DNA of 64,000 bases from Desulfosporosinus sp. FKB (lineage in GTDB: Bacteria > Bacillota > Desulfitobacteriia > Desulfitobacteriales > Desulfitobacteriaceae), in assembly GCF_002196705.1 (NCBI RefSeq), contig NZ_NADJ01000038.1, positions 124,001-188,000 of the forward strand. The letters run 5' to 3'. Below, in pieces: positions 3,927 through 41,937 of the stretch (its first letter is position 1; every line of letters begins with the position of its first letter). A program made the translations under genes and the position numbers. Under the pieces are notes generated by a model. It saw only the letters and a program-made list of their open reading frames with translations, made no database searches and was not told the origin of the DNA.

Positions 3927-4643
3927 ATGTCGCCATTTGAAAATTCATCCCATTATTATCAAAATCCTTATGTTATTGACATTAAAAAGGTCAAGACTGT
4001 TTCATTATCCCAGATCATGGGCCTTTTATCCTTTATGTTCTTAGCGATGGCTGCCGGAGCTTTACTAGTACCTCCGCAATATTTTATGCCTGCTGCTATT
4101 TTGGAATTTTTGTTGCTCTTTTTTATTCCGATCGTTAGTCGGCGAGCTGTCGTACGAGGAGACGATCCTGCCGCCGGTTTAACTGCAGGACTGGCTCTGC
4201 TCTTTGCAGCATGTGCGGGAGCTGTTCTTAGTCCAATCGTCCAAGCTTTAACCGCAACGACCGAAGGACTTTTAGTACTTGGACAAGCTGCTTTAGTAAC
4301 CTTTATTGTCTTTGCCGCCTTTGGTGCCTATGGGCTCATGACAAGGCGTAATTTAAGCGGTATGGCAAAAGCGCTCTTTATTGGCTTGTTAGTCCTGCTG
4401 GGAGTTACAATTCTTTCAACGATTTTCAGCAGCTTTTTCAGTCCTTTCGGTTTGCTGATCGGTTTAGGAGGCGCTATTCTTTTTTCCCTGATGACGGCCT
4501 TAGATTTCCAAAGAGCAAAATATAGCCTTGCTGACAATGCTGTTTTAGTCACCCTAAGCATCTTTTTAGATTTCATCAATTTGTTTACATTTATTTTAGA
4601 TATTTTTCTGATCTTTGGCGGCGGAGGAATTCGCAAACGTTAA
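3927..4643 (+). CDS. Bax inhibitor-1-like integral membrane protein
   Basis: 238 residues, almost entirely hydrophobic, with about seven membrane segments starting near residue 30. The C-terminal stretch ALDFQRAKY followed by SIFLDFINLFTFILDIFLIF is characteristic of the BI-1/YbhL/YccA family (UPF0005), whose members can act as pH-sensitive calcium leak channels. The final segment ends in a Gly-rich basic tail. AGAGGTG stands about 10 bp ahead of the ATG. The gene is monocistronic and shares a bidirectional terminator with galU. Confidence 0.75.
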   Translation: MSPFENSSHYYQNPYVIDIKKVKTVSLSQIMGLLSFMFLAMAAGALLVPPQYFMPAAILEFLLLFFIPIVSRRAVVRGDDPAAGLTAGLALLFAACAGAVLSPIVQALTATTEGLLVLGQAALVTFIVFAAFGAYGLMTRRNLSGMAKALFIGLLVLLGVTILSTIFSSFFSPFGLLIGLGGAILFSLMTALDFQRAKYSLADNAVLVTLSIFLDFINLFTFILDIFLIFGGGGIRKR

Positions 4644-4689
4644 TAGGGACAAGCAACCGTTATCAATAATAAGTGAATCACAGAAAGAC

Positions 4690-4730
4690 AAAGCCCACGA
4701 TACTCTATCAAAGAGGATCGTGGGCTTTTT
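4690..4730. terminator. bidirectional terminator between BI-1-like gene and galU
   Basis: The stem AAGCCCACGAT / ATCGTGGGCTT has a further CTCT/AGAG inner stem and T6 on the plus side. The galU stop codon lies directly at its other edge. Confidence 0.85.
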
Positions 4731-4731
4731 T

Positions 4732-5649
4732 CTAGAAGCTGGAGCACATAGGTTTTCTCGCTGACTTCTCTCTTTCTCTCAGTTTTCTGCTAATAACCTG
4801 CTGCAAGTAATCCATAAGCAGAGGCTCTAATTCTTCCCTCTGCAGCCCCATTTCCACAATGGCCTGTAAATAGCCAAACTTATCACCGATGTCGTAGCGT
4901 TCTCCCTCTAATCTCCAGGCTAACAATCCTTCGCGAAAACAAACCTGCCTTAAAGCATCCGTCAACTGATATTCATTGCCCGCTCCTCGTTCCAAGGTAT
5001 GAAGAATCGAGAAGATTGAAGGTTTAAGAATATATCTTCCCATAATAGCCAAATTTGAGGGCGCTTGAAACGGCGTAGGTTTTTCAATTAAATCCTTAAC
5101 CTGATAAGTTTGACCTTTAGTATCTTGGGGAGCAATAATTCCATATTTTCTAACATCATCATTGGGGACCGGCTGTACACCAACCACGGTGGCATCATAT
5201 CTTTCATAAACCTCCATAAGCTGCTGCAGTCCGGGCTTGTCCGAAACCATGATGTCATCACCTAACAAGACTGCAAAGGGCTCATTCCCGATGAATTGCT
5301 CGGCACAAAGGACGGCATGGCCTAATCCCAACGGTTCTTTCTGGCGAATGTAATGAATATTAGCCAATTCATTAATACGCTGCAGTTCATTTAGTACATC
5401 TGTTTTCCCTTTATCTTTTAAAGTCTGTTCCAGTTCGACGGACTTGTCAAAATGATCTTCGATGGATTTCTTATTGCGTCCGGTAACAATAAGAATACTT
5501 TCAATGCCGGACTGTACGGCTTCTTCAACAATATATTGAATTGCCGGTTTATCAACAATCGGCAGCATTTCTTTAGGTTGTGCCTTTGTTGCCGGCAAGA
5601 ATCTTGTGCCTAAACCGGCTGCCGGAATCACGGCCTTCTTAATCTTCAT
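4732..5649 (-). CDS. galU: UTP-glucose-1-phosphate uridylyltransferase
   Basis: 305 residues, normal for GalU/GtaB. The N-terminal nucleotide-binding signature [20 protein letters not shown] (about residues 10-29) and the [10 protein letters not shown] and IEKP motifs are intact. It makes UDP-glucose from UTP and glucose-1-phosphate in the cytoplasm. Its start overlaps the gtrA stop by 4 bp (ATGA), so it is translationally coupled as the last gene of the four-gene glycosylation operon. UDP-glucose is therefore the likely donor for the upstream GT2 enzyme. The C-terminus is Ser/Lys/Arg-rich. Confidence 0.95.
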
Positions 5650-6089
5650 ATCATTTCACTCCTTAATCTAGGCTGCCGAAATACCCATAAACGGCTGCCC
5701 ATAAAATTGATGGCTAAACTTGCTCCTACAGCAATCAATCTGCTCGCCAGCATCGGCCATCCCCAGTTGTCATGAACCCATACTAAAAGGCCATAGGTCA
5801 AGGCCAAAGTAACGATATTTAAAGATACGAACTGAATCATTTGTCTCATTGAGCGGTCAGAGGTTAATTCTTCTTGATTCGCTCCACTGTCTTTGGCTTT
5901 AAAGGTCCATTTCCGATTCAGCCAAAAACTGTTTAAAACCCCGCAGCTGTAAGAAAGAGTGTGGGCGGGGAGTAAAGGAACTCCCCAGGCAAACAATAGG
6001 GCAAAAACCGCAAAATCAATCCCGGTATTTATTCCTCCCACGGCACAAAATCTCAGGAATTCGAGCTGACGTTTTGTTATCTTAGCCAA
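5646..6089 (-). CDS. GtrA family membrane protein
   Basis: 147 residues with four membrane segments typical of GtrA (PF04138): [20 protein letters not shown] at the start, then [18 protein letters not shown], and a final helix near residues 115-135. GtrA proteins are proposed flippases for polyprenyl-phosphate-linked glucose. The gene overlaps the GT2 gene upstream by 8 bp and galU downstream by 4 bp, which supports one pathway: sugar activation, transfer to lipid carrier, flipping, and external transfer. The loop around residues 60-75 is hydrophilic. Confidence 0.9.
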
Positions 6090-40326: not shown

Positions 40327-41937
40327 TCACTCTAACATAGATTCCAGGACAGTCCAGACAGGGCTCAAAGAATCCCCACGTTTAAGCGATAAAGGAATAG
40401 GATAAGGCAAAAGCTGGGCCAGCTTTGAGATTTTCTCATCATCCTGAACTTTGTCAACTTTGTTGAGCAGAGTGATGATCGGCTTTTCTTGACACTCCAA
40501 TTGTCCTAAAACGTCGTGGACAGTCTCAGCCTGTTGAATTGCCTGCGGATGACTTACATCTAAGACATGAATAAGAACGTCAGCCTGCTGAACTTCTTCG
40601 AGAGTTGCCAAAAAAGCTCTGAGCAGCTTAGTAGGCAGTTTGCGGATAAAACCAACTGTGTCACTCAGCAGAATTTCAAGCGCAGGTTTAATTTGAACTC
40701 TGCGGACAATAGGATCTAAGGTCGCAAATAATTTATTTTCTCCGCTAGGAATATCAGAACGAAAGCCGGCTTGCTCCATAGCATTCTTCATAAACGTCGT
40801 TTTTCCGGCATTTGTATAGCCAACCAAGGCTACTACAGTTAAACCGCTTTTAGCCCGCTGACGTCTTTGAATCTCTCGATGCTGCAGGACAGCTCTCAGC
40901 TCTTTTTCCAGAAGATTGATTCGTTCGCGCATTCTCCGACGATCAAGCTCCAATTTGGTTTCTCCAGGGCCGCGTGATCCAATTCCGCCGCCTAGCCTGG
41001 ATAAAGCTTGTCCTTGTCCTGTTAAATAAGGCAGCAAATGTTTTAGCTGTGCCAGTTCCACCTGAAGTTTACCTTCACGAGAACGGGCACGCTGGGCAAA
41101 AATATCTAAGATTAGCCCCGTGCGGTCTAAAACTTTCAATCCCGTTTCCATTTCCAGGGTCCGCAGCTGTGCCGGGGACAATTCATCATCACTTATTAGC
41201 ACCTCAGCCCTTGTTTCCTGAAGCCGATGAACTAATTCTTCCAGCTTTCCGCTGCCTATATAGCTTCGTGACTGGCCGTTACGGCGCAGTTGGACAAGCT
41301 GCCCAACGACCTCGACTCCTGCAGTAAGTGCTAACTCTGCCAGCTCTTCCAGATCCTCATTAAACTCTTGATCTGCTTCTTGCAAGGCCAGGAGAAATGC
41401 ACGCTCTTTTTCAGGTTTCGTCTCTGTCTTTTTCCGCCCATTGTGACTGTGATAAGGATCAGGTATAGATTCGTAATAATCAAACTCTTGCCAGTTATTC
41501 GGGCTAAGATCAACTACTAAAGGATTACCATCACCTGTATGGTAAGCAAGTTGAAAACCTGTCAGTTCACCTTGGCGTACTCCAATAGCTGTCATACTTT
41601 CCAGCCTTAAAGATGTCAAGGCACTATAATCAAGGGAACTAAGCGTTGGAACTCCATTGGGATGGGTATGCAGGCAGCGCAAATGTTTGCTTTGTGATCT
41701 TCCCTTAAGGGGTGGGAGAGTAACCGCCGCATGTTTTCCCACAGCTGACGCAATCAGTACTCCCCCGCGGGAAAGGTAAATACAAATCTCTCGGTTCCAA
41801 AGCTGTGTCAAACGGATTAGGCTGCTGAGAATTTGGGGATGAATCAATTGCTGCCGCTCTGTTTGATAATCGGACAGCATTTTAAGCTCCAGTATTTGAC
41901 TCGCCTTGATACCAGACAAATCGCCCGAGACTTCCAT
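40327..41937 (-). CDS. hflX: GTPase HflX with N-terminal JAMM-like extension
   Basis: 536 residues, about 110 more than typical HflX. The GTPase part is complete: the HflX N-domain with LVQLRRNGQSRSYIGSGKLEEL (about 212-233), the glycine-rich linker GGGIGSRGPGETKLE, P-loop GYTNAGKTT (about 362-370), DTVGFIRKLP and NKVD. It binds ribosomes and helps split them under stress. The first 165 residues are not HflX-like. They contain H90-T-H92-P-x6-S100-x2-D103, an exact match to the JAMM/MPN+ metalloprotease motif, and a preceding Glu (about E50). Context: spoVK upstream, ynbB-like gene downstream. Confidence 0.9.
   Translation of the reverse strand: MEVSGDLSGIKASQILELKMLSDYQTERQQLIHPQILSSLIRLTQLWNREICIYLSRGGVLIASAVGKHAAVTLPPLKGRSQSKHLRCLHTHPNGVPTLSSLDYSALTSLRLESMTAIGVRQGELTGFQLAYHTGDGNPLVVDLSPNNWQEFDYYESIPDPYHSHNGRKKTETKPEKERAFLLALQEADQEFNEDLEELAELALTAGVEVVGQLVQLRRNGQSRSYIGSGKLEELVHRLQETRAEVLISDDELSPAQLRTLEMETGLKVLDRTGLILDIFAQRARSREGKLQVELAQLKHLLPYLTGQGQALSRLGGGIGSRGPGETKLELDRRRMRERINLLEKELRAVLQHREIQRRQRAKSGLTVVALVGYTNAGKTTFMKNAMEQAGFRSDIPSGENKLFATLDPIVRRVQIKPALEILLSDTVGFIRKLPTKLLRAFLATLEEVQQADVLIHVLDVSHPQAIQQAETVHDVLGQLECQEKPIITLLNKVDKVQDDEKISKLAQLLPYPIPLSLKRGDSLSPVWTVLESMLE

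Follow-up and report, generated by a model that had tools for sequence, protein, structure and literature searches.

HflX is a widely studied factor in ribosome rescue, heat shock and antibiotic tolerance. It covers the A site at the 50S interface and breaks the intersubunit bridge by shifting H69 (PMC9067457). In mycobacteria the protein carries an N-terminal extension of just 39–58 residues, which reaches uL16, H38 and H69–71 and is needed for the effect on rRNA (PMC12493154). The HflX proteins of E. coli and Listeria have no JAMM-like domain.

JAMM enzymes cleave peptide or isopeptide bonds by means of a single zinc, a glutamate that acts as the base, and a serine; their defining motif is EXnHS/THX7SXXD (PMC300881). 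The archaeal JAMM proteins stand alone, and one of them, PfJAMM1, acts on the ubiquitin-like SAMP2. AMSH, AMSH-LP and Sst2 are eukaryotic, specific for K63-ubiquitin, and contain extra insertions. RadC and the Prok-JAB proteins, including the anti-phage proteins Cap3 and BubCD, are not fused to HflX. In the open-access literature we found no paper linking HflX with JAMM, JAB or MPN.

The HflX described here is encoded in a stretch of 64,000 nucleotides from Desulfosporosinus sp. FKB (the window). Its core has both sequence and fold in common with HflX and HflXr of E. coli (5ady), Listeria (8a57) and mycobacteria (8vio). Its N-terminal region agrees with PfJAMM1 (5ld9/5lda) and AfJAMM (1oi0/1r5x) in predicted fold and in the E / H-x-H / S / D motif (PMC300881), but is fused to a ribosomal GTPase. 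The fold is also common to RadC, Cap3 and BubCD, and the sequence HTHP...SxxD is shared in register with AMSH, AMSH-LP and Sst2, in which the spacing from Glu to HxH is far longer. We consider it probable that residues 1–160 form a JAMM (MPN+) metalloprotease domain attached to a GTPase that splits ribosomes, and that this domain trims a protein located on the large subunit. Judged against the open-access literature and the Pfam and NCBIfam models, this is a new domain architecture made from two known families, and standard annotation misses the domain.

Organisation of the protein

The hflX gene occupies positions 40327–41937 on the reverse strand and encodes 536 residues, organised as a JAMM domain, a linker and an HflX core that lacks the usual C-terminal domain. 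The start codon is ATG, which is supported by the conservation of G5 and G9 among relatives. The JAMM/MPN domain (residues 1–160, 41458–41937, reverse strand) was delimited from an AlphaFold2 model, structural matches and weak profile matches. It is followed by a linker (residues 161–177, 41407–41457, reverse strand) that is variable among relatives and is predicted with low confidence, the pLDDT being approximately 47–52 at residues 161–175 in the model of the domain and below 50 at residues 167–172 in the full-length model.

The remainder is the HflX core (residues 178–533, 40339–41406, reverse strand), comprising the N-terminal HflX domains and the G domain and identified by Pfam, Foldseek and sequence motifs. 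It scores 416 bits against TIGR03156 over residues 180–533, above the curated cut-off of 216.75, and has Pfam matches to GTP-bdg_N, GTP-bdg_M and MMR_HSR1. The best structural match found with Foldseek is HflXr (8uu9/8a57, E 1e-32). All the GTPase motifs are intact: GYTNAGKT at 373–380, ATLDP at 405–409, DTVGF at 426–430 and NKVD at 492–495. A preliminary description of this DNA regarded the protein beyond the N-terminal region as an otherwise normal HflX. That is not quite so, because in our alignment (A4) the sequence stops approximately 58 residues short of 42 other HflX proteins, and the C-terminal domain is absent in this lineage, whose HflX stops directly behind the G domain; positions 40327–40338 are the C-terminus. 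The cores of Caldicellulosiruptor-like copies (L257–L263; family f78) are short in a similar way.

The JAMM motif and its conservation

The motif in the window protein consists of E50, H90, T91, H92, P93, S100 (seven residues past H92) and D103, exactly where the preliminary description had placed it. E50, H90-T-H92, S100 and D103 conform to the published definition (PMC300881), so that the claim of an exact JAMM consensus in the first 160 or so residues is borne out. Glu50, which presumably serves as the acid-base catalyst, is encoded at 41788–41790 (reverse strand); the assignment is based on conservation and on DSSP analysis of the model, which places it at the start of the strand that follows the first long helix pair. 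The remaining motif, H90-T-H92-P-x6-S100-x2-D103 (41629–41670, reverse strand), contains S100 and the three residues presumed to bind zinc (H90, H92 and D103), as judged by conservation and by its register with RadC and with the HTHP...S..D of AMSH-LP and Sst2.

Conservation was analysed in two sets of sequences, in addition to the unbiased sample described below. The first consists of 50 HflX proteins of relatives at the level of genus, family, order and class, collected using the whole HflX protein and no motif criterion. H90, T91, H92, P93, S100 and D103 are present in 50/50, and E50 in 49/50, the remaining row beginning too late to include it. The second comes from a scan of GTDB, in which at least 524 loci encode the domain; the best 80 were retained, which with the window gives 81, and originate from Clostridia, Peptococcaceae, Sporomusaceae and Acidaminococcaceae. 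Although identity to the window is only about 25–35%, the columns E50, R57, G59, G67, R87, C88, H90, T91, H92, S100 and D103 are invariant in all 81. P93 is found in 80 of them, with a single exception, P93L; locus L089, which reads HTHL, retains every catalytic residue. The scan made use of two peptide patterns that resemble the motif, one of them including HTHP, and for this reason favours intact copies. Judging by these alignments, the occurrence of the motif in the window protein is beyond chance.

The pair R87-C88 (41674–41679) immediately precedes H-x-H. It is nearly invariant and is outside the general JAMM consensus. Copies from family f39 that lack the histidines (see below) nevertheless keep this pair, which points to a function of the pair besides catalysis.

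Predicted structure of the N-terminal domain

A model of residues 1–175 was generated with AlphaFold2 from the 81-row alignment, with a mean pLDDT of 87 and a pTM of 0.83. In order from the N-terminus, the model has a β-strand, helices at 12–23 and 34–47, strands at 50–55 (starting with E50), 61–68 and 87–92 (ending with H90-T-H92), a helix at 101–109 that begins at S100, and strands at 114–121, 124–133 and 139–144.

The model was compared with known structures using VIA-align (1000 best chains). The 50 best rows are all JAMM/MPN-fold proteins (50/50), in agreement with the fold proposed in the preliminary description. The best match is PfJAMM1 (Z 9.0, rmsd 3.3 over 114 residues), and the list includes RadC (2qlc, Z 7.0), BubCD (9ea4, Z 7.0), AMSH and Sst2 (Z about 7), Cap3 (9ild, Z 6.6) and AfJAMM (Z 6.5). 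Most of the Z scores are below 8 and are modest when taken singly; their weight comes from the uniformity of the list. Many of these MPN matches, EMC and Prp8 among them, are subunits without catalytic activity. A Foldseek search of the PDB was likewise headed for the most part by JAMM/MPN proteins, namely CSN5, PfJAMM1, Cap3 and the Rpn11 homologue of Caldiarchaeum, with E values around 1e-3 and TM scores of only 0.3–0.45. It is thus well supported by modelling that residues 1–175 adopt the MPN (cytidine-deaminase-like α/β) fold, with the Glu at the strand following the helices and the HxH after the central strand.

Relationship to known JAMM families

With the threshold relaxed to E = 1, the window domain on its own still had no match in Pfam, and no Pfam or NCBIfam model annotates the domain. 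When all 81 members were scanned against Pfam, Prok-JAB was matched in 41/81 (best E 0.00047) and RadC in 19/81, all of them weakly. A profile of the domain searched against the PDB has AMSH-LP, Sst2 and STAMBP as its twelve best distinct sequences, with weak E values (0.0025–0.02), aligned so that their HTHP...SxxD is in register with the window motif. Run on genomes, the domain profile also picked out two true RadC proteins, again in register. When profiles were compared with each other, using alignments built locally, there were partial matches to Prok-JAB (E 9e-5) and to RadC (E 0.002), compared to E 0.26 for a reversed RadC control. On these comparisons we place the domain as a sister branch of Prok-JAB (PF14464) and RadC (PF04002), and not as a member of either.

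RadC proteins have the sequence HNHPSG, an N-terminal helix-hairpin-helix and a length of approximately 230 residues, whereas the window protein has HTHPNG and the fusion to HflX, and does not classify as RadC. The genome of the window also encodes RadC, RqcH and Prp. We rejected the idea that the domain is a mere RadC paralogue, given that a separate RadC is encoded in this genome and that the domain differs from RadC in motif and in being fused. A role as a stand-in for Prp, the protease that trims L27, is not needed, as Prp is present.

Occurrence across the phylum, and loss of the site

An unbiased sample was obtained by running the domain profile against 398 genomes that cover the phylum evenly. 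It matches 74 of them; two of the matches are true RadC and the other 72 are HflX copies. HflX scores above the curated cut-off in 304/398 of the genomes, so that 72/304 (about 24%) have the domain. Within this sample the domain is only ever fused to HflX.

All 72 domain-bearing copies were inspected. E, H, H, S and D are all retained in 59/72, and among these intact copies the neighbouring positions vary, with C88 replaced by I, L or A and R57 by N or K, while the catalytic residues are constant. In the other 13/72 both histidines are gone and the domain is retained; these belong to families f39 (five copies), f78 (seven) and f85 (one). We take f39 to include Acetohalobium and f78 to be Caldicellulosiruptor. 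These natural pseudo-enzymes (L250–L253 and L256 in f39; L257–L260, L262, L263 and L269 in f78; and L261) have RCIYLTF or IFTRLSS where others have RCIHTHP. The expectation that Glu, both His, Ser and Asp would be conserved in homologues, close and distant, therefore holds for most copies and fails in three families. From the sequences we infer that this all-or-none pattern is the expected trace of an enzyme that is active and has now and then lost its function. Retention of the domain without the site in 13/72 also implies that in some lineages it has a non-catalytic use.

Proposed function and alternatives

By analogy with the JAMM family, the domain is likely to be catalytic, and it is from the chemistry of the family that hydrolysis of a peptide or isopeptide bond is proposed. 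H90, H92 and D103 would hold a single zinc, E50 would activate water and S100 would steady the transition state, and the domain would then hydrolyse a peptide or isopeptide bond. The HflX core would bind at the subunit interface of the 50S particle, above the A site, and split the ribosome. Given this location of the core, the JAMM domain on its flexible linker would be placed at the exposed interface, and its site would be brought to the surface laid bare when ribosomes that have stalled or been damaged by stress are split. What is most likely to be trimmed there is a protein located on the large subunit, which may be a factor that is stuck, the tail of a ribosomal protein, or a stalled nascent chain once it becomes accessible. 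The last of these is weakened by the observation that HflX and peptidyl-tRNA in the P site clash in E. coli (PMC9067457). The proposal does not extend to a ubiquitin-like system. A more specific version, put forward tentatively, is that the protein is a dedicated ribosome-tethered isopeptidase of Clostridia and Fusobacteria, in which HflX would split stalled ribosomes and the JAMM domain would remove a protein modifier, a ribosomal protein tail or a nascent chain, with a logic akin to that of the eukaryotic deubiquitinases that act on ribosomes.

The main competing explanation, which we regard as rather unlikely, is that the domain serves for docking only: its metal site would be vestigial or purely structural, and the MPN fold would position HflX on the ribosome or bind a partner, like the MPN domains of eIF3 and Prp8. 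The 13/72 copies from f39, f78 and f85 that retain the domain without HxH speak for it, as do the persistence of R87-C88 in the f39 copies without histidines and the many non-catalytic proteins (EMC, Prp8) among the structural matches; in addition, the mycobacterial extension, which is unrelated and short, works by touching rRNA and uL16 (PMC12493154). However, a docking surface would not be expected to hold exactly the catalytic set of Glu, both His, Ser and Asp in 59/72 copies while the flanking residues change, and E50, whose sole role in JAMM proteins is catalysis, is as fixed as the metal ligands.

It is far less probable that the domain is a self-processing switch, cutting its own HflX or another copy of HflX at the linker. 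The two domains are indeed joined by a disordered linker, but this varies in both length and sequence and contains no conserved cut site, and the JAMM enzymes known to us act on other proteins. That the motif arose by chance in an unrelated extension is the least credible explanation. The failure of any Pfam model to match the window domain alone would fit, but the strict conservation, the predicted MPN fold and the in-register profile matches stand against it, and we regard chance resemblance as already refuted by the conservation and the fold. A fused JAMM protease thus remains our preferred explanation. Should it prove active, a GTPase that splits ribosomes would for the first time have a proteolytic step of its own, and the fate of proteins on rescued bacterial ribosomes would become directly testable, with the natural copies that lack the site as ready-made controls. 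In many clostridia and related bacteria the domain has the predicted fold and the complete metal-site residues of enzymes that remove ubiquitin-like tags in other cells, which suggests that rescue of ribosomes is linked to a proteolytic activity not described so far.

Genomic context and history

On the same strand of the window, the neighbours are TypA/BipA and a SpoVK-like AAA ATPase on one side of hflX, and a methionine gamma-lyase family protein and a signal peptidase on the other. When the open reading frames around 80 loci were clustered, no family flanked more than 13/80 (a Nudix hydrolase, a YigZ-like protein and ribonucleotide reductase, 13 each). There is therefore no consistent neighbour, and no gene for a substrate, a ubiquitin-like protein or conjugation emerges from the comparison. 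This differs from Cap3 and BubCD, which are found in defence operons with conjugation machinery; none is found beside the window hflX.

The domain is spread across Clostridia, Negativicutes-type genomes and Fusobacterium. The Fusobacterium HflX (600 residues; L291, and L292 at 4001–5800) also has the JAMM domain, and its record is labelled simply as GTPase HflX. Plasmid records gave only two matches, both from Fusobacterium; one record labelled as a plasmid, NZ_CP084075, is 2.1 Mb long and for that reason is probably a mislabelled chromosome. In IMG/VR, a complete JAMM-HflX of clostridial type is present on one contig (L270); a viral origin was considered, and the contig was taken to be bacterial and the gene not to be of phage origin.

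Some genomes of the same genus (G016, G018, G019 and G022) have a second HflX without the JAMM domain, which in G018 is interrupted by a TAA stop. In genus g68 (G118, G155, G184, G256 and G410) the HflX frames are 740–830 codons long and have no match to the JAMM profile; these possibly represent a different fusion at the N-terminus, or simply a reading frame that happens to be long.

A tree of the 81 HflX cores was calculated, as a quick tree only. The three states, namely JAMM, domain without motif and no domain, are clustered on it. The deep backbone is not resolved, and consequently the tree does not separate a single gain followed by losses from several transfers. In one clade the copies without the motif adjoin a copy without any domain, an arrangement that resembles stepwise loss.
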